Shown here one piece after another: positions 16,423 to 39,474 of a stretch of 39,474 nucleotides of DNA. A program made the translations under genes and the position numbers. The notes beneath the pieces were generated by a model. The model had not been told where the DNA came from. It searched no databases and saw nothing but the letters and a program-made list of their open reading frames with translations. This DNA is from a virus. Position 1 is the stretch's first letter; each line of letters opens with the position of its first letter. The stretch lies in the IMG/VR virus record IMGVR_UViG_3300035138_000024, positions 1 to 39,474 of that record, one strand, 5' to 3'.

Positions 16423-17442
16423 TTATGCCGCTTCACCTAAATCATTAATTGTCCATAAATCCGTAGAGATCAAATCAGCTCTTGCGGATGCCGCTTCACC
16501 ACCAGGTGTATAATAAGACGAACAATGAAAAGTTAAACTATTTGTAACATCTTGATTTGTAGCTATTTCAATCAAGAAATTATCATAATTATTTGTTGAA
16601 AAACTTGTAGCATTAGATAACATGTTATTTATTTGTGTGACAGCTTCAATATTAAAGTTACTAATATCTTGGTTAAATGCTGTACACCCATAAAATGTAT
16701 AACGCATATCAGTAACTTTAGAAGTATCCCAATTACTTAATGTTTGATTAAAAACATATGCATTATAGAACATTGCATACATGCTTGTAACTTCTGAGGT
16801 ATCCCAATCATTCAAAGGTTGATTAAATTTATTGCATTCTCCGAAAACATCAGCCATACTATTTACACTAGATGTATCTAGAGAAGATACATCACCATTA
16901 AAATTTGAACATCCATAAAACATTGCCCATATTGTAGTAACATTACTTGTATCTCTAAATTTAATAGAGTTTGTTGTTAAACTTGCACATGCCCTAAAAC
17001 ATTGAGCCATATTAGTTGTTGTACCTACATCTAAATAATCTTTAGCATTAATTACTAAATTAGCACAACCATAAAAATGCCCACCGCCCGCATTTAATTT
17101 AAAATTTTTTCCCCATTGTTTAATAGTTAATAGTTTTAAACAATCTCCTCCATTGTTAAATTGCCAACCCCAGCATTGACCATTTATTTTAACTGTATAA
17201 GTCCCCGATGAAGAATAAGTATGTGTTGTTTCGGCTTGGTTCCATACTGTTATTGTATCGCTGTTGCCATCTCCCCAATCAACGATACAATTATAACTAC
17301 CACCAGATACAAAAGGTAATGATATTTCGTTATCTTCACTTGTACCAACATTATCAGTCTTCCAAGTTGTTATAAAATGTCTTTTAACGGTGGATCCTCC
17401 AGATGCTAAACTAATTTTATTTAAAGGAATATTAGTTACCAT
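16423..17442 (-). CDS. BspA-like (DUF285) repeat surface/tail-fibre protein with PKD-like domain
   Basis: A 339-residue protein. Residues 40-95 (CIVDWGDGNSDTI, THTYSSSGTYTVKING) form a PKD-type Ig-like domain. Residues 120-290 are at least five BspA/DUF285 repeats of the 'FYGC..FN..L..WDTS.VT.M..MF' type. No signal peptide is seen, so a virion adhesin or receptor-binding fibre is more likely than a secreted protein. It lies far from the tail operon, behind its own promoter with an 83-residue partner. BspA repeats bind host glycans or proteins in bacteria. Confidence 0.85.
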   Translation of the reverse strand: MVTNIPLNKISLASGGSTVKRHFITTWKTDNVGTSEDNEISLPFVSGGSYNCIVDWGDGNSDTITVWNQAETTHTYSSSGTYTVKINGQCWGWQFNNGGDCLKLLTIKQWGKNFKLNAGGGHFYGCANLVINAKDYLDVGTTTNMAQCFRACASLTTNSIKFRDTSNVTTIWAMFYGCSNFNGDVSSLDTSSVNSMADVFGECNKFNQPLNDWDTSEVTSMYAMFYNAYVFNQTLSNWDTSKVTDMRYTFYGCTAFNQDISNFNIEAVTQINNMLSNATSFSTNNYDNFLIEIATNQDVTNSLTFHCSSYYTPGGEAASARADLISTDLWTINDLGEAA

Positions 17443-20755: not shown

Positions 20756-21415
20756 TTATATATTATTTTTATGAATTTTATCCTTTAATAAAAAATAAAT
20801 ACCTGTTAATAATAATAATATTGATAATATTATAAATAAAATGTTGCTTGCTTCTCCTGTCTGTGGTAGTTGATCCCCTTCTGTTTGTATTGGTGATTGT
20901 GTAATATTTGGTGTATTTGTTGGACTATTAGTATCTGTAGGTATAGGCGTATCTGTAGGCGTATTTGTAGGCGTATCTGTATCTGTAGGTGTAGATGTCA
21001 TTATATCAGTTTGTGTTGATGTAGGCGCATCTGTTGGTTTTGTACATAAATATATAACAATCTTTATATTTAATTTTTTGTCGTTTTCATCAATATAATT
21101 TATCAAAATTATATTTCTCCCAGCCTTTAATTCATGAGTTTTATTTTCAATTATTTTCCATTTTTTATCTTTTATTTTTATTTTTATTATTATTTTATTA
21201 TCTTCCACATTTATTGGTATGCTTTTTGTGATCCAGTCACCTTTTTCTAAGAAGATTTTGTTAAAATCTTTTCCAATAATAATTTGAGTTTTATTAAAAT
21301 CCATTTCATTACTTACTATATATTTTATCTTATCTTTGCAGTCACACAAGGAAGCAAAACATATATTACTTATCATTAATAATAAAATCATTGTTAATAC
21401 AATTGTTTTTTTCAT
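20756..21415 (-). CDS. LPXTG cell-wall-anchored surface protein
   Basis: A 219-residue protein from the ATG at 21415 (GGGG 7 bases upstream). It has a signal peptide (KKTIVLTMILLLMISNICFA), an unknown beta-rich domain of about 100 residues, a Thr/Pro/Asp stalk of some 50 residues, then LPQTG, a hydrophobic span (ILFIILSILLLLTGIYFLL) and a KDKIHKNN tail. This is a complete sortase substrate. Phage particles do not need sortase anchoring, so it should be displayed on the host wall during infection or carriage. It could act in receptor masking, adhesion or conversion. Confidence 0.88.
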   Translation of the reverse strand: MKKTIVLTMILLLMISNICFASLCDCKDKIKYIVSNEMDFNKTQIIIGKDFNKIFLEKGDWITKSIPINVEDNKIIIKIKIKDKKWKIIENKTHELKAGRNIILINYIDENDKKLNIKIVIYLCTKPTDAPTSTQTDIMTSTPTDTDTPTNTPTDTPIPTDTNSPTNTPNITQSPIQTEGDQLPQTGEASNILFIILSILLLLTGIYFLLKDKIHKNNI

Positions 21416-21662
21416 TATCATTCCCCTTTTCTTTTTTTTTAATTGTATCATTTTTTTCATTAAGAAAAAGCTTATCAAATAATTCTATACATTTGTTTAA
21501 TGTTCCATCAAATGTAAAAATAAAATTTTTTTTGTTACTTGCAACATAATTAAAATGTTTACTTGTTTTAATTTTATCTAAATTATTTTTTGTAATTTTT
21601 TTCTCAACATTTATCGTAGTTCTATTTTGAGCAAAATTATATTTAAAGCTTTTTTTTATCAT
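21366..21662 (-). CDS. Hypothetical basic protein (98 aa)
   Basis: GAGGTGG precedes the ATG by 7 bases. Asn/Lys-rich with a central FNYVASNKKNFIFTFDG segment. The last 50 bases overlap the signal-peptide region of the LPXTG gene in another frame, so the low-complexity tail may be nonessential. Not recognised. Confidence 0.6.
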   Translation of the reverse strand: MIKKSFKYNFAQNRTTINVEKKITKNNLDKIKTSKHFNYVASNKKNFIFTFDGTLNKCIELFDKLFLNEKNDTIKKKEKGNDNEKNNCINNDFIINDK

Positions 21663-31716: not shown

Positions 31717-32280
31717 TTATGTTGGAATGTAATCCCAAATTTCCACAGGTACGGTCGTCGGCGTGCTATAACTGTAAAAACCCTCATACATCATGGGACT
31801 AACAACCTCGTCTTTTTCAGTCAGTGGGAATTGAGTGTTTGGTGTAACATTTAAAGCATTATTTACATAAATAATACAATTTTGACCATCCATTTTTTGA
31901 CCAACATAAGCAATATTAGTTAATACATCAGTCGATTCAAAACCTAAACGCGGTTGAATTTGTTTATATGTTCCATCTTTGTCTGTTCCATCACTAACTG
32001 TTATGTTATATCCATATGCTAAATTAGTATAAGTTAGTTTTAAAAAATTAATAGTCAATGTTCCATAACATTGTGTAACTCTTCTCATATTTTTTATTGG
32101 GCCATATGCTCCATCAACATTAATTCTCTTTATAGTATTTACAAGTTGAAAACTGGACCCATTTCTAGTTACACCAATATTATAATTATCTGTCCCGTAA
32201 TTTCCGTAAACAATTCCCTCTTTTAGCCAAATATAATGGGCTTTTTTAATTGGTGCTGGACTAAATACACCCTGTGACAT
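31717..32280 (-). CDS. Major tail (tube) protein, short paralogue (187 aa)
   Basis: Contains INVDGAYGPIKNMRRVTQCYGTL near residues 53-75 and ends EKDEVV...YEGFYSYSTPTTVPVEIW. Both segments match the longer neighbour at 32298-33410 in order and spacing, so the two are paralogues of one tube-protein fold. The short form has no inserted domain and is likely the main tube subunit. Confidence 0.75.
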   Translation of the reverse strand: MSQGVFSPAPIKKAHYIWLKEGIVYGNYGTDNYNIGVTRNGSSFQLVNTIKRINVDGAYGPIKNMRRVTQCYGTLTINFLKLTYTNLAYGYNITVSDGTDKDGTYKQIQPRLGFESTDVLTNIAYVGQKMDGQNCIIYVNNALNVTPNTQFPLTEKDEVVSPMMYEGFYSYSTPTTVPVEIWDYIPT

Positions 32281-32297: not shown

Positions 32298-33410
32298 CTA
32301 ACTTGTATACTCTCTTATTCTAACCGGTATAGTAGACCCCTTTGATGGGAAATAATGGGCTGTATATTGCGTGTTAACTACAACTTCATCTTTCTCACCC
32401 ATAGCAAGATCAATGTTCCCATCATTAAAACTATTGTCTTGTATTACTTTTATCATTTTTCCATCATGCTTTATTCCTATAATTGTAACATTGTCTAAAA
32501 AATCATTGTCCTCAATATTTATTTTTGGAGTATATTTTTTGTAAGTTGTTTCATTTGTATATGTCCAATTTCCGCCCTGTCCTTCTATTGGAGCCGAAAA
32601 CGCATCCGAATCATCACTAATTGTCATTAACATACTAACACTATCAATATATACAAAAGCCTCCGAACTTGGAGCACCATCAAAAACTAAACTAATACCT
32701 GTTATTGCTCCCCAATCTTCCGATCCACCGGCCGCACTTGTAAAACTTGACCTTGCAATAGTAAAATTTGTCCATTGATCGGCAGTTAAAGAAGCCTTAG
32801 CAATATCATAATAATAATAACTTGTTTCCGTTTCTTCGGCATCACAATGAAGTTTTAATTTTAATCCTGTATCTAATTTTGCAAGTTCGGCGGTTGTAAC
32901 ATAGATTGCAAAACATATTTTATCGGCTGTTGTACCAGCTTCACCATTCGCATAATTTTCTAAATCTAAAGAACTCGAAAAAACTTCATGTATTCCTTCA
33001 CCGTCGGCATCTCCTGTTAATTTAGCTGACTGTATACCAGTTTGTATTATGCTAGTTTCTGCGGCGTAAGCACCGTCGCCACCAGCCCAATTTCCAGATT
33101 CCCAATTATCGTCAGCCTCTGCATTAGTAATATTTTTTATATTAAAATATCTTAAATATAACATTTGTACCGTTATTTTTGGACTAAATTCAATAGTTCT
33201 TATCATTGGAACGCCATCTTCATCTAACATAGAACCATAAACACCATCGCAATTTACTTTGTGTAATGTTCTAGGCCATTCTACAACTAACCCACCTCTG
33301 GCAACTCCGACCAATAATTCTTTTGGAGTATCGTAATTATGATATATTTTGAACTCTCCATATATAATGTCGTTTGCGGATGGAGTTTCATGAGTAAAAA
33401 CACCATTCAT
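32298..33410 (-). CDS. Major tail protein paralogue with inserted CBM-like domain (370 aa)
   Basis: The N-terminal 95 residues (VNCDGVYGSML, TIEFSPKITVQMLYLRYFNI) and the C-terminal 75 (FLDNVTIIGIKHDG, EKDEVVVNTQY, STIPVRIREY) align with the 187-residue neighbour. Between them, residues about 105-270 form an extra beta-sandwich (WESGNWAGGDGAYAAETS, QSAKLTGDADGEG, VYIDSVSM) resembling CBM4/CBM11-type carbohydrate modules. If incorporated it would decorate the tube with sugar-binding knobs. Ig-like tube decorations are known; a tandem paralogue pair is less usual. Confidence 0.75.
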   Translation of the reverse strand: MNGVFTHETPSANDIIYGEFKIYHNYDTPKELLVGVARGGLVVEWPRTLHKVNCDGVYGSMLDEDGVPMIRTIEFSPKITVQMLYLRYFNIKNITNAEADDNWESGNWAGGDGAYAAETSIIQTGIQSAKLTGDADGEGIHEVFSSSLDLENYANGEAGTTADKICFAIYVTTAELAKLDTGLKLKLHCDAEETETSYYYYDIAKASLTADQWTNFTIARSSFTSAAGGSEDWGAITGISLVFDGAPSSEAFVYIDSVSMLMTISDDSDAFSAPIEGQGGNWTYTNETTYKKYTPKINIEDNDFLDNVTIIGIKHDGKMIKVIQDNSFNDGNIDLAMGEKDEVVVNTQYTAHYFPSKGSTIPVRIREYTS

Positions 33411-33425
33411 TGATATTCCCCCTTT

Positions 33426-33833
33426 CTATCCATATACATGTAATACATATCTTTGGTCGAACCTTGACACATTCGACTCATCAACATCAATGTAATCCTC
33501 CCAATCATGAAAGCAATTATAAAATCCTATGTCTTCGCCCTCATTTCCGTAACTTCTATCTAAACCGGGCTCTAATAATGTATCACCTAAATACTTACCT
33601 TTTCTTACTATATCTGATTTTTCATCAAGCAAAGTATTATCATTAGAATCAATCCAAAATTGTATCTCTAAATTTCTGTCTACTCTACCCCTAACTAATG
33701 AATCACCATGCCCAATATTATAAATTATATATGGCAAAACCTTGGTAATTTGTACATTACCATCATATGCAATCCAACCAGTTAAAGCCTCAAGACGTGC
33801 CTTTATATTTTCTTTTAAATCTTGTTTGTTCAT
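33426..33833 (-). CDS. Tail terminator / tail completion protein (135 aa)
   Basis: The opening NKQDLKENIKARLEALTGW and PYIIYNIGHGDSLVRGRVDR, followed by LEIQFWIDSND and DIVRKGKYLGDTLL, follow the gp17/minor-tail-completion pattern. TAATG couples it to the gp10-like gene upstream. It caps the tail tube. Confidence 0.75.
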   Translation of the reverse strand: MNKQDLKENIKARLEALTGWIAYDGNVQITKVLPYIIYNIGHGDSLVRGRVDRNLEIQFWIDSNDNTLLDEKSDIVRKGKYLGDTLLEPGLDRSYGNEGEDIGFYNCFHDWEDYIDVDESNVSRFDQRYVLHVYG

Positions 33834-34120
33834 TAAATATCACGCCCCAATTCATCCGCCATTATGCGGGCTATTTCGGTTTTATGATTTAAAACCGCCG
33901 GCCTCATAAATGGATGCGCCCGCATTTTATAAGTTCCAAACTCTTGAAATTTTGCATAATAGCAGTCATTTTGTAAATATAATTCATTTTTTGATATTAC
34001 ATATTCATTTCTAGATTTTAGATATCCAGTATCAACAGCAACATAATGATCCATTTTTCCAACACAAAAGCGGCCAACGGCCTCAAGTGCATTTTTTTCA
34101 TTTTGCCTTAATTGTCTCAT
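33833..34120 (-). CDS. HK97 gp10-like protein (95 aa)
   Basis: VDTGYLKSRNEYVISKNELY and YAKFQEFGTYKMRAHPFMRP are the diagnostic gp10-family motifs (PVDTGxLRxS; YaxxxEfGT...hPFlrPA). I prefer the ATG at 34120, since the upstream GTG at 34153 would add 11 untypical residues. It overlaps the glycosyltransferase end by 23 bases. Role: neck or head-tail joining. Confidence 0.85.
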   Translation of the reverse strand: MRQLRQNEKNALEAVGRFCVGKMDHYVAVDTGYLKSRNEYVISKNELYLQNDCYYAKFQEFGTYKMRAHPFMRPAVLNHKTEIARIMADELGRDI

Positions 34121-35186
34121 GAACTTTCCGGTTCTGTTTATGTGATAGATCACTATATATCACATCCATTTCTTTTGAATAATTTTCAAATGAAAATAAT
34201 TTATGAAGCTTTGTCATTTCTTCAACAAAGTTAATGTTTTGATCCTTGTGTGTAATAAAAAGTCTAATAGCTTCAATAACTTCCTTTGTATATGCAATAT
34301 CGCATTGATATGTACCAACTTTATTCCCTTGTTGACATAATACAGGAGTACCACACAAAATCGACTCCCCGATAGTTCTTGTTATTATCCTGTTTGGTGA
34401 TGCCACCAAATCCGCAGATCTATAAACATCCTCAATATTTGTTATTCTTCCTACTATATCACCTAACCCACCAAGATCTTTTAATTTATTTAATACTATA
34501 TTCCAACAATTAGGCAATGGAAGGTCCAAACTACCAAAAAAATGTATTTTTAATCCTGGAAATTGTCTAACAGCTTCGATTAATCCATTAACAAGCTCAA
34601 AGTTGTCAATGTCTTCTCTCATTGAATCACATAATAAAATATTATATTTACCCTTAGATTTAAATTCATATTTATTGCCATCTGGGCAAAATCTAGCATT
34701 ATCCACACAAGGATATTCAAGACAATGTAATTTGCTCTCTGGAAACACATTTTTCCAGTATGGCGTAAATTCAGGCCAAAAATACAACATCTTTTTAACC
34801 CTAGGCCATTTACTTATATTTTCATACAAGGAAAATGAATTATTCTTACCCATTAATTCGGGTCTAAAACATGCCAGCGGTCTACCATGAACGACCCAAA
34901 CAATAGGAACCTCAGTTTTAACAATCCAATTATCATTAATTCCTGTATGTGCAATAATCACATCTAAATTATTTATCTCGTTTAAACTACTAACATTAAT
35001 ACTAAAACCCGCTCTATTATCTTGTTTTCCAACTTGCGGCTGGTCTTGCTTGTTACCTGTAATTATTCCAGTATCAAAAAATAAAACACCATGGCCCGCT
35101 AAAAGATCAGCTTTTGCCATATCGCGCGCCGCTTCATACAATCCGCACCTAGAAGGAGCGAACGGCGCAAAATGCCCAATATACAT
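34098..35186 (-). CDS. Glycosyltransferase (GT4-like) in the head-tail module
   Basis: A 362-residue GT-B-type enzyme. The N-terminal domain has IGHFAPFAPSRCGLYEAARD and PIVWVVHGRPLACFRPE; the C-terminal nucleotide-sugar domain has NILLCDSMREDIDNFELVNG, LKIHFFGSL and PNRIITRTIGESILCGTPV with the conserved E-x7-like donor-binding Glu. Related enzymes occur among structural genes of some uncultured phages. It is read with, and 27 bases after, the Ser/Thr-repeat gene, so that protein or a tail component is its likely acceptor (inference). Two exact CACACAAGGA copies and a 9/10 variant fall here. Confidence 0.85.
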   Translation of the reverse strand: MYIGHFAPFAPSRCGLYEAARDMAKADLLAGHGVLFFDTGIITGNKQDQPQVGKQDNRAGFSINVSSLNEINNLDVIIAHTGINDNWIVKTEVPIVWVVHGRPLACFRPELMGKNNSFSLYENISKWPRVKKMLYFWPEFTPYWKNVFPESKLHCLEYPCVDNARFCPDGNKYEFKSKGKYNILLCDSMREDIDNFELVNGLIEAVRQFPGLKIHFFGSLDLPLPNCWNIVLNKLKDLGGLGDIVGRITNIEDVYRSADLVASPNRIITRTIGESILCGTPVLCQQGNKVGTYQCDIAYTKEVIEAIRLFITHKDQNINFVEEMTKLHKLFSFENYSKEMDVIYSDLSHKQNRKVHETIKAK

Positions 35187-35213
35187 GAAATACCTCCTAT
35201 TTTTACTTTTCTA

Positions 35214-36017
35214 TTATCCAGCTGCTACAACACCAACTGAATCAATTTTACTATCAGTAACAACAAAACTACTATTCATAGTAGATAATAATGTTGAAAT
35301 ATTAGCAATAATAGTACTATTTAATGTACCATTTGAATCTGCTTTAACTATAATAGTACTATCCAAAACACCAACTGAATCAACTTTACTATTTCCAGTT
35401 GAAAGCAATACACCAACACTTGCTATGCTACTATTACCTGTACTTTGTAGAGTTCCCACACTTCCAATAGCTGATAAATTAGAACTATTGGCAGTTGATG
35501 CCGCCGTACCAACACTATCAACTTTTACAACTGTTGATCCTATTAAACTATTACCAGTACTTACTAAAGTTCCAACTGAATCAACTTTACTATTTCCAGT
35601 TGATAATAGTACCCCTACGCTTGCCGCGCTACTATTGCCAGTTGATTGCAATGTTCCGATTGAGTCAGCTTTAACTATAATAGTACTATTTAAAGTACCT
35701 ACGCTGTCAGTTTTACTGTTGCCAGTTGATAATAAAACCCCTATGCTTGCCGCGCTACTATTGCCAGTACTTACTAAAGTTCCAACACTATCAGTCTTAG
35801 ACGATCCGGTACTAACATCACTTGCAACACTATCAAGAACAGTTGCAACACTATCTATAACATCGGCTGAGCTTCCTATTTTTGAAACGTTTGTTGATTG
35901 TTCGGTCGTGATTGAATCTAACACAACCGCTGTACTTCCTATAGTTGAGGCTGTACTATCAATAGTTGATAGACTATCCCCAATTGAATCTAATTTACCT
36001 ATAAAAGTATATGCCAT
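35214..36017 (-). CDS. Ser/Thr-rich heptad-repeat protein (267 aa)
   Basis: Nearly the whole chain is built of 7-residue units, commonly paired as DSVGTLV-STGNSSA. By my count 59 Ser and 34 Thr make up 35% of residues. There is no Cys, Trp, Arg, His or Pro. Regular Val/Leu/Ile in each heptad suggests a trimeric shaft with Ser/Thr outside. It has no signal peptide and lies between the MuF-like protein and a glycosyltransferase, so a glycosylated head or neck fibre is the leading idea. The recent DNA repeats (such as the GCCGCGCTACTATTGCCAGT type) indicate unit duplication. Confidence 0.85.
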   Translation of the reverse strand: MAYTFIGKLDSIGDSLSTIDSTASTIGSTAVVLDSITTEQSTNVSKIGSSADVIDSVATVLDSVASDVSTGSSKTDSVGTLVSTGNSSAASIGVLLSTGNSKTDSVGTLNSTIIVKADSIGTLQSTGNSSAASVGVLLSTGNSKVDSVGTLVSTGNSLIGSTVVKVDSVGTAASTANSSNLSAIGSVGTLQSTGNSSIASVGVLLSTGNSKVDSVGVLDSTIIVKADSNGTLNSTIIANISTLLSTMNSSFVVTDSKIDSVGVVAAG

Positions 36018-36028
36018 TTTCTCACCTT

Positions 36029-36175
36029 CTATTTATACTTTTTTATCATGCTTTTACATTTTTGTTTTTCATCATCCGTCAAAGCAACAATTAAACGTCT
36101 TTTCCACATTCTTAAAGGTGTTTCGGTAGCTTTAATAATTAACATTTTATTTTGAATTTTTATGTCATTCATCAT
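36029..36175 (-). CDS. Small basic protein between MuF and repeat protein (48 aa)
   Basis: The ATG at 36175 overlaps the MuF-like stop as ATGA. The product (KMLIIKATETPLRMWKRRLI, then a charged helix) is basic and unlike known head proteins. Position suggests a structural or assembly role. Confidence 0.6.
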   Translation of the reverse strand: MMNDIKIQNKMLIIKATETPLRMWKRRLIVALTDDEKQKCKSMIKKYK

Positions 36176-36774
36176 TTAACCTCCATGTGGAAATGTTTAC
36201 AGTTCGGATGATATAAACCTTTTTTCTTAGCTTCCTCTAATTCTTGCAAAGTCAAAACTTTTCCCTCATATGGTATACATAATTCACATATCGTATTATG
36301 ATCTGAAATTCTAACAAGGTTTTTACCCTTTGCTTTTATTTTTTCTGTCTCTGCTAATCTTACCAATTCATTGTTTATGTGGACCGTCAACATGTTGCTA
36401 TAAGTTTCTATATTCCATTTGGCCCCATTTTTTGCCGTAAATCCTGTTATGCCGCGGTTAGCATAATCATTTAAAAGTTTTTGAACTAATTTATCGTTCT
36501 TAGCTTCCTTGGCTATTTTTATTTTTTTTAAAACATTGTTATAGTCAAGTTTGGCAAGAACATACATATTGTTCATTTTACTTTTATACTCATCAATAAA
36601 TTTTTGAGCCTCTTTACTTTTTGTATGCTTCCAAAAATAACTTTCCGCGGCTTGCATAAAAGAATGATTAGTCAACATTTTTTTTAAATAATAAGTTTTG
36701 CCTTGTGATAAGTTTTTTAATGCTCCATCTGTTACTTTTGCATAATATTTAATTAAATTATTTATCATACTCAA
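36172..36774 (-). CDS. MuF-like minor head protein (200 aa, TTG start)
   Basis: The C-terminus has NTICELCIPYEGKV and YHPNCKHFHMEV, the Mu-F domain signature 'C-x-x-C...G...HPnC-x-H'. The first 150 residues are helical with a long basic middle. The TTG at 36774 is 9 bases after GGAG; an ATG two codons on is possible. MuF proteins usually lie between portal and scaffold; here the gene follows the capsid. Confidence 0.85.
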   Translation of the reverse strand: MSMINNLIKYYAKVTDGALKNLSQGKTYYLKKMLTNHSFMQAAESYFWKHTKSKEAQKFIDEYKSKMNNMYVLAKLDYNNVLKKIKIAKEAKNDKLVQKLLNDYANRGITGFTAKNGAKWNIETYSNMLTVHINNELVRLAETEKIKAKGKNLVRISDHNTICELCIPYEGKVLTLQELEEAKKKGLYHPNCKHFHMEVK

Positions 36775-36802: not shown

Positions 36803-37702
36803 TTAACTAGATTTGTTGTGTATATAAACTCCATTGACTTTATTATCAGCAACAAATAAATCATGGTATAACCTATACTTGAATAAAAATGCATCCGCGC
36901 TTTGATTGTCGTCCGGTGATATGATTCCAGGCTTTACATATTTGACAACAGCCGCAACTATATCAATCGGAATAATCATAAAATTAATATCATATCCAGC
37001 AGTTACAAAACCGCCAGCAGTTTGACCGCCACTTGTACCATCATATAAAGTAATAGAAGTATTAAATCTTCCACTAGGCACTTGAACTAATGGCATTTTA
37101 TCAAACATTTCAATATCCCTATCAATTACTGGATTCATACCACTTGTAATTCTAACCTTTAATGAATCACCTGATTGTTTCATTAATTGATATACACCAT
37201 TTGAAACAAATAAAGCCCTGTTTGATTTTGGAACTTCTAAATCATCCAATGCAGCTATACCTGTATCAATAGCATTAATAACTGTGTCATATGTCAATGT
37301 AGCTTGTGCATTTGATCCACACAATGAATATAACTTATAAAATCTATATGCATCTAATTCTGGAATAACTTTAGTTCTTGTAAATTCCGCTGCTATTTCT
37401 GCGATAGTTGTATAAGCTTCAACTGAATCCATTACATCTAAATTAAATCTTCTACCTCTTTCCTGTGTTAATGCGTGATTTTCCCATGTTACTGTGCCAT
37501 CACCATCTACAAAACCGCTCGATCTTGAATAATCGGCCAAACCATCAACACTAATTTTTCTAAGGTATACATTTTTAGCGTTAACCTTGTCGGGCCTAAC
37601 TTGAGACTTTGTTGCTTCTAGTAATCTAGTACAACTTTCTTTTTTAAATATTAAATCTAACAGTCTTAAGTATTCACTTGCATAATTGACCGTATTAGCC
37701 AT
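36803..37702 (-). CDS. Major capsid protein
   Basis: A 299-residue HK97-fold candidate following the scaffold. Motifs include SVDGLADYSRSSGFVDGDGT, TQERGRRFNLDVMD, AEFTRTKVIPELDAYRFYKL and the late KPGIISPDDNQSADAF. I recall this set from Firmicutes phage capsid proteins without a cleaved N-terminal delta domain. GAGG precedes the ATG at 8 bases. Confidence 0.88.
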   Translation of the reverse strand: MANTVNYASEYLRLLDLIFKKESCTRLLEATKSQVRPDKVNAKNVYLRKISVDGLADYSRSSGFVDGDGTVTWENHALTQERGRRFNLDVMDSVEAYTTIAEIAAEFTRTKVIPELDAYRFYKLYSLCGSNAQATLTYDTVINAIDTGIAALDDLEVPKSNRALFVSNGVYQLMKQSGDSLKVRITSGMNPVIDRDIEMFDKMPLVQVPSGRFNTSITLYDGTSGGQTAGGFVTAGYDINFMIIPIDIVAAVVKYVKPGIISPDDNQSADAFLFKYRLYHDLFVADNKVNGVYIHNKSS

Positions 37703-38446: not shown

Positions 38447-39474
38447 TTATAAATTATTGTCGTTATTTTGATTAATTAAACTTTGATTAAACTTGTCTAT
38501 ATTTGCGTTGTCTTCTTCCTCTTTTAGTTTTTTAGCTTCCTTAACATCTTTTACCCATGGATGATTCTCAAGTATTAAGTCCATTGGAATTATATCCATT
38601 GACTTGACACAATTGTCAATAATTTCTGTCTCATTAAAATTTACTGACTTATTAAATTCAATGTCTTTGTTGTAATCAGTACCATAAAACTTGTTTAAAC
38701 AATCAATAAACTTACCATAAAATAATTTTATCTGCTTAATACATTTTTCACTTTTCATATTTAAAGCTTGATATCTATTTTTAATGACTATATTAGTTAT
38801 ATTTCCATCACCTATTTTATCAGGATCTAATCCCTGACCATTTTTAAATATATCCTCTTTTAACGAATTTAAAATTACTTCCCTTGCTTCGACTGGAATA
38901 TCAATTTTTAAATAATCTGCATCACTCTCTGGATCACTTAAAGAAATCATTTTATATTTTTGCATTTGTTTTCTAGTGGTTTCCAAAAAATTATCATCAC
39001 CAGCAAAGCCGCGAAGCTTCATTAATGCATCTTGGAATTTAAAAATATTATCTACAAAACCAGATTTAATGATATTATAAAAATCTAATTGATCCTTAAT
39101 CATATTTAAATCATTTTCCATGTTTTTATTATTGTATAGAGGTATAAATGGAACAAAAGGTAAATTCTTTGATTCCTCATTCTCTAATTCTCCATTATAA
39201 TAAATACTGTCTTTGTAATGGCTTTCTTTTTCATCTGACATAATAACATCAAGTCCGCTTTTTTCTTTATATTTTATAGTTCTTACACCTGTAATATCCC
39301 AAATTTCAACATTCATTATTTTTTGATTGTCTTCTTTATTTTCTTTAGTTTCATAATATCTTATTATTTTTTCAATTTTCTTATTGTATTTATCAAAGAT
39401 AGGTTTAATTTGCCAATCGGGAATAAGGATCCATTTTAAAACGCTTTCATCTACATACAAAAAAAGCCATGCCG
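38447..39474 (-). CDS. Portal protein, SPP1 gp6-like, main part (continues at position 473-1)
   Basis: Residues from about 115 to 457 of the portal, with the first part encoded at 1-473. Visible features are TAWLFLYVDE just before WILIPDWQIKPIFDK, a NLPFVPFIPLYNNK segment, and QDALMKLRGFAGDDN; the C-terminal third is helical and ends in an acidic EEEDN tail. Bases 39348-39474 repeat 1-127. Portal mutations in SPP1 change packaging length, so this protein also sets headful size in that family. Confidence 0.9.
   Translation of the reverse strand, partial: AWLFLYVDESVLKWILIPDWQIKPIFDKYNKKIEKIIRYYETKENKEDNQKIMNVEIWDITGVRTIKYKEKSGLDVIMSDEKESHYKDSIYYNGELENEESKNLPFVPFIPLYNNKNMENDLNMIKDQLDFYNIIKSGFVDNIFKFQDALMKLRGFAGDDNFLETTRKQMQKYKMISLSDPESDADYLKIDIPVEAREVILNSLKEDIFKNGQGLDPDKIGDGNITNIVIKNRYQALNMKSEKCIKQIKLFYGKFIDCLNKFYGTDYNKDIEFNKSVNFNETEIIDNCVKSMDIIPMDLILENHPWVKDVKEAKKLKEEEDNANIDKFNQSLINQNNDNNL
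39348..39474. repeat. Terminal direct repeat, right copy
   Basis: Identical to 1-127. Counting it once gives a unit genome of 39,347 bp. Confidence 0.95.

Follow-up and report, generated by a model that had tools for sequence, protein, structure and literature searches.

Staphylococcal SdgA/SdgB with the Ser-Asp-repeat adhesins, and streptococcal GtfA/GtfB with the serine-rich repeat glycoproteins, are systems in which a Ser-rich repeat gene lies beside a gene for a GT4-like GT-B glycosyltransferase and the enzymes glycosylate the adjacently encoded repeat protein. A single operon drives the expression of SdgA, SdgB and the repeat protein that they modify, and a DUF1975 insertion is the acceptor-binding element of Ser-repeat glycosyltransferases (PMC8561734). 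In Che8 and similar mycobacteriophages, phage-encoded glycosyltransferases are proposed to glycosylate virion proteins, with capsid and tail-tube subunits as acceptors at their C-termini (Freeman et al. 2023, as cited in PMC11256854 and PMC12619734). Few virion glycosylation systems are known in tailed phages, and their acceptors are ordinary structural subunits. Phage T4 alpha-GT and its relatives are also phage-encoded GT-B enzymes. Phage head fibres and spikes are repetitive fibrous proteins whose genes lie beside the capsid gene.

The locus described here is part of a 39,474-nucleotide virus record (IMGVR_UViG_3300035138_000024; hereafter the window). Like the bacterial systems, it has a Ser-rich repeat gene next to a gene for a GT4-like GT-B glycosyltransferase (GT), and modification of the neighbouring protein would be the phage counterpart of the known bacterial reaction. 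Unlike SdgA/SdgB and GtfA/GtfB, phage GTs of this family have about 350 residues, which leaves no room for DUF1975, and the 362-residue GT of the window has no such Pfam match. The phage repeats are heptads and 14-mers instead of the SD dipeptides of the Ser-Asp adhesins. In contrast to the bacterial adhesins, the phage protein is encoded among head genes, its sequence lacks an LPXTG anchor and Pfam returned no anchor match. As in the Che8-type phages, a phage-encoded GT is proposed to add glycans to virion proteins, but here the enzyme is encoded beside its proposed acceptor, a fibre of Ser/Thr repeats dedicated to that role. The genomic setting differs from that of T4 alpha-GT, with no base-modification genes recognised among the window ORFs scanned, a set in which several ORFs have no family and short ORFs are partly covered. 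The repeat gene resembles those of head fibres and spikes in its proximity to the capsid gene and differs from them in being coupled to a GT and in occurring either alone or as the tail of a spike-like protein.

The late gene block and the repeat protein

The record ends in an exact 127-base direct repeat (1-127 and 39348-39474), and the portal gene is divided between its two ends. Most likely, therefore, the record holds the complete genome (~39.3 kb), circularly permuted and assembled as a circle, though it is classed as linear. Read on the minus strand and through the junction of the two ends, the late genes have the order terminase, portal, scaffold, major capsid, minor head, repeat protein, GT and Neck1. 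The major capsid protein (36803..37702) matches phrog_422 (E 8.4e-79) and is followed by a Phage_min_cap2/MuF-like minor head protein (36172..36774; PF06152, E 7.1e-14; phrog_581). The repeat protein (35214..36017) and GT (34098..35186) come next, and the 3′ end of the GT gene overlaps the start of the gene for the Neck1/tail-completion protein (33833..34153; phrog_5, E 1.1e-13) by 56 bases. Downstream on the same strand are one small ORF, the genes of two proteins that resemble major tail proteins (phrog_885) and more tail genes, and the originally predicted place of the pair in a late block after a MuF-like gene is thus correct.

Three other proteins of the window merit description. The two neighbouring major-tail-like genes (31717-32280 and 32298-33410, minus strand) match a single family, and the product of the second has an additional internal segment of ~170 residues that, by eye, could be a carbohydrate-binding-like domain. 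The 240-residue product of 20756-21478 (minus strand) has a Thr/Pro-rich stalk, an LPQTGE motif, a hydrophobic C-terminal stretch and a Gram_pos_anchor match (E 8.5e-8). These features identify it as a predicted phage-encoded sortase-type surface protein, which suggests a Gram-positive host. Outside the late structural block, 16423-17442 (minus strand) matches DUF285 (E 5.9e-51) and, weakly, PKD.

The repeat protein had been described as 267 residues of 7-residue units with 35% Ser+Thr and no Cys, Trp, Arg, His or Pro. Its composition is as described, with 59 Ser and 34 Thr residues (34.8%) and none of the excluded residues, whereas the 7-residue unit holds by residue class and not by exact sequence. 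Identity autocorrelation peaks at 14 residues (z 11.7), 28 (10.5) and 42 (9.0) and shows no signal at 7 (z -0.5), which sets the length of the exact repeat unit at 14 residues. This unit is roughly GNS[KS]x[DA]S[VI]G[TV]LxST and covers most of residues 67-182. By class, Fourier power at 3.5 residues reaches 34.5 for Ser/Thr, against 10.5 in the best of 20,000 shuffles, and 18.3 for hydrophobic residues; Ser/Thr occupy two of the seven heptad positions at 76% and 61%. Serines in the same register are encoded by AGT or AGC (AGY) in some units and by TCA (TCN) in others. A change from one codon group to the other takes two substitutions, and the mixture is most simply read as selection for Ser.

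The protein can be divided into three segments. Residues 1-66 (35820..36017, minus strand) form an N-terminal heptad segment that is conserved in the family alignment, with 3.5-residue power of 11.5 for hydrophobic residues and 8.7 for Ser/Thr. Judged by eye, the N-terminus resembles this heptad pattern and not a signal peptide. The tandem 14-residue units span residues 67-234 (35316..35819, minus strand; pLDDT mostly 50-70) and are degenerate after about residue 182. The C-terminal segment, residues 235-267 plus the stop codon (35214..35315, minus strand), has a ...TxSKIDSVG end that the alignment shows to be common to several relatives. In the AlphaFold model, low-confidence helices at residues 2-65 and 235-260 flank a shaft that is modelled poorly, with a mean pLDDT of 60. 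The beta structure drawn for this shaft was rejected, given its pLDDT of about 60, the absence of a 2-residue rhythm and the dominance of the 3.5-residue rhythm. A match to ACP_syn_III_C (E 8.5e-4), in which no single stretch passes alone, was rejected as a composition artefact.

The predicted glycosyltransferase

The original prediction of a GT-B glycosyltransferase 27 bases beyond the repeat ORF agrees with the coordinates and with structural modelling. The AlphaFold model of the GT (pLDDT 91.8, pTM 0.89) has a predicted GT-B fold of two Rossmann-like domains, and its Foldseek matches in the PDB include the GT4-type enzymes BshA, MshA, PglA and HepE, all with probability 1.00. The Ser-repeat O-GlcNAc transferases SdgB and GtfA are also among the top 50. 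Many other GT4-like enzymes match as well, with small-molecule enzymes ranked above these two, and the acceptor cannot be read from the fold alone. T4 alpha-GT and models of viral DNA alpha-GTs are likewise among the matches.

At the level of sequence, the family departs from GT4. The Glyco_trans_1_4 profile scores the GT below threshold (E 0.0099; 16.6 bits, where the curated cut-off is 27), and the best family member reaches 21.7. In the register taken from the HepE alignment, residues 266-274 (34365..34391, minus strand) occupy the place of the GT4 EX7E motif, and the family appears to lack that motif. Its first Glu is replaced in 32/32 members (24 Arg, 4 Lys, 2 His and 2 Ser; R266 in the window), which means that donor or activity may differ. 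The second Glu, E274, is invariant in all 32, as are H100, R190, R247 and R270. With the profile score below threshold and the first Glu lost, we call the enzyme GT4-like and do not claim strict GT4 membership. Relative to the nearest relative (L009), omega is 0.10 for the GT gene and 0.20 for the repeat gene, and both are under purifying selection.

Coupling of the repeat and the enzyme

Profile searches yielded 48 viral loci, 47 of them with a GT ORF, and one contig from a metagenome-assembled genome (MAG). With the window included, there are 49 GT loci, from which L035, L055 and L087 were excluded for want of useful upstream sequence. A Ser/Thr repeat protein is encoded upstream of the GT in all 46 informative loci: directly adjacent in 31, separated by one or two other ORFs in 7, and separated by methyltransferase-like and DUF7164 genes in 8. 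GTs that regularly lack a Ser/Thr-repeat neighbour would have spoken against the original prediction, and none was found among these loci. A formal test based on Ser/Thr content and periodicity was passed by 42 of the 46 upstream proteins compared with 6 of 634 other ORFs, and the failures (L028, L031, L032 and L065) have short arrays visible by eye. Some members are poorer in Ser/Thr, with 22% in L016. The reverse search, with repeat proteins alone, gave 27 loci of which 25 have a GT, and the contigs of the other two end first. Its pattern was built from a closer subset of repeat members, as the alignment of all members gave none that could be searched. The statistics on these co-occurrence counts ignore shared ancestry.

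The pair accompanies three major-capsid families (phrog_422, phrog_371 and phrog_10), and where both are in view it always lies 3′ of the major capsid gene, on the same strand and 0-5 ORFs on. In two isolated phages whose capsid is of a related phrog_422 type, neither a repeat protein nor a GT is annotated 3′ of the capsid gene. In most members of a second clade of GTs, the repeat makes up the C-terminal portion of a larger protein whose N-terminal domain resembles a beta-helix spike by eye, with no Pfam match. This arrangement permits a comparison among the 80 best homologues of the N-terminal domain, restricted to those with at least 1.6 kb downstream and with Ser/Thr tails assigned by sequence inspection and a periodicity score. 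All 8 spikes with a Ser/Thr tail are accompanied by a GT, compared with 0 of the 58 homologous spikes without one (Fisher p 1.7e-10, ignoring shared ancestry). Clustering at 90% identity leaves 6:0 versus 0:48 (p 3.9e-8, again ignoring shared ancestry). As read from these sequences, the comparison links the GT to the repeat itself, and not to the capsid genes or to the remainder of the spike. Plain synteny was therefore rejected as the cause of the pairing, since the capsid families vary and spikes without the repeat also lack the GT. One homologous spike, L122, carries a different tandem repeat as its tail (period 38; ...GTITNTGGTA...GGVLGDVAN...) and was not counted as having a Ser/Thr tail. 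No GT is present in its ~1.2 kb of downstream sequence, a length that in any case places it outside the 1.6-kb comparison.

Additional candidate glycan enzymes occur in the related clade. In L022, L028, L031-L033, L036, L037 and L042, conserved methyltransferase-like and DUF7164 genes lie between the repeat or spike protein and the GT. The invariant TDxDxFLT stretch of DUF7164 resembles the DxD motif of GT-A enzymes, making this protein GT-A-like, and the third protein of the clade appears class I methyltransferase-like from its ELGxGxGST motif. A GT2-type gene (PF00535) follows the GT in L025. Together, these genes suggest that the glycans may be longer or capped in that clade. Sugar-related or lectin-like matches are also present near the cassette, namely ArabFuran-catal (E 4e-9; L017:6221-7066) and Laminin_G_3 (E 5.3e-21; L040:8766-10349).

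All relatives except L087 come from uncultivated viruses. L087 is a 5.5-kb contig binned as Calditrichaeota and the sole match of the GT family among cellular-genome contigs; because its GT groups with that of phage member L076, it may be a phage contig inside the bin. The GT (window and two other members) and DUF7164 have no match among the phages of INPHARED, a collection built on isolates. The repeat protein also gave none there, a result weakened by the low-complexity filter of BLAST. PHROGs holds no family for either protein of the pair. No such repeat-GT pair was found in a literature search that most subscription journals lie outside, and novelty is accordingly a judgement on the searchable literature.

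Proposed function and alternatives

The most probable interpretation is that the pair is a dedicated virion-glycoprotein cassette, with the GT adding O-linked sugars to the repeat stalk of a fibre close to the head. The analysis shows the sequence, the predicted GT fold, the heptad rhythm, the fact that repeat and enzyme are present or absent together, and the proximity of capsid genes, and the idea of a phage-encoded, self-modified fibre gains in particular from the 46/46 loci and the 8:0 versus 0:58 spikes. We infer catalysis on the repeat, a donor sugar, virion display and a benefit to the particle, as follows. The repeat protein would form a thin head-proximal fibre or stalk, a rod along which Ser/Thr recur at set heptad positions. 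The GT-B enzyme would act in the host cytoplasm during late expression, before assembly, and move a nucleotide-activated sugar onto many Ser/Thr hydroxyls. The product would be a densely O-glycosylated fibre, and the rod would then be assembled on the particle near the head. In the related clade, extension and capping of the glycan would fall to the GT-A-like DUF7164 protein and to the one that resembles class I methyltransferases. The sugar coat would probably benefit the phage by shielding its particle or by letting it adhere reversibly to surfaces that bind glycans.

Two alternatives change the target or the location, and each is improbable to a similar degree. The GT might act elsewhere, on a capsid or tail-tube subunit or on host surface glycans (superinfection exclusion), with the repeat protein as an unmodified structural companion. 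The GT gene does adjoin capsid and tail genes, and mycobacteriophage GTs glycosylate capsid and tail-tube subunits (Freeman et al. 2023, as cited in PMC11256854 and PMC12619734). However, the capsid family varies while the repeat partner is constant, and homologous spike loci without the Ser/Thr tail are also without the GT. There is an equally small chance that the repeat protein is the acceptor but functions away from the head, as a tail fibre, a protein released on lysis or one placed on the host cell. Such a role is in keeping with the other, LPXTG-anchored surface-type protein of the window phage. The repeat protein itself has neither this anchor nor, by eye, a signal-peptide-like N-terminus, and its gene lies 0-5 ORFs beyond that of the major capsid protein wherever both are in view. 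The location of the cassette near capsid genes in three capsid families favours the head or neck, without proving it.

Other alternatives concern the activity of the enzyme. It is very unlikely that the GT has lost its catalytic activity and instead helps the repeat fibre to fold or assemble, as a chaperone or assembly partner: the first Glu of EX7E is kept in 0/32 members, but five other residues are invariant, the low omega of 0.10 points to constraint, and further glycan enzymes join the cassette in the related clade. Slighter still is the prospect of a DNA-modifying role, in which the GT would glucosylate the phage genome like the T4 enzymes. The DNA alpha-GTs among its Foldseek matches fit that activity, whereas the GT gene lies within the late head block, 3′ of a Ser/Thr repeat, and neither hydroxymethylase nor base-modification genes were recognised among the window ORFs scanned.

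Conservation of the pair in dozens of otherwise different uncultivated phages suggests that these phages place a sugar-coated fibre on their own particles. A compact two-gene unit, found with several capsid families, appears to supply both the acceptor and the enzyme, much like the bacterial serine-rich adhesins. We hold it an evenly balanced proposition that this is a mobile phage glycofibre module, consisting of a Ser/Thr heptad rod, alone or attached to a spike-like domain of a different kind, that is kept with a dedicated O-glycosyltransferase specific to phages and sometimes with extending and methylating enzymes. The module would then represent a dedicated-acceptor class of virion glycoprotein that is so far confined to uncultivated phages. 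If true, the proposed pathway would assign a role to a family of phage GTs that at present lacks one and would provide a sequence marker for sugar-displaying phages.
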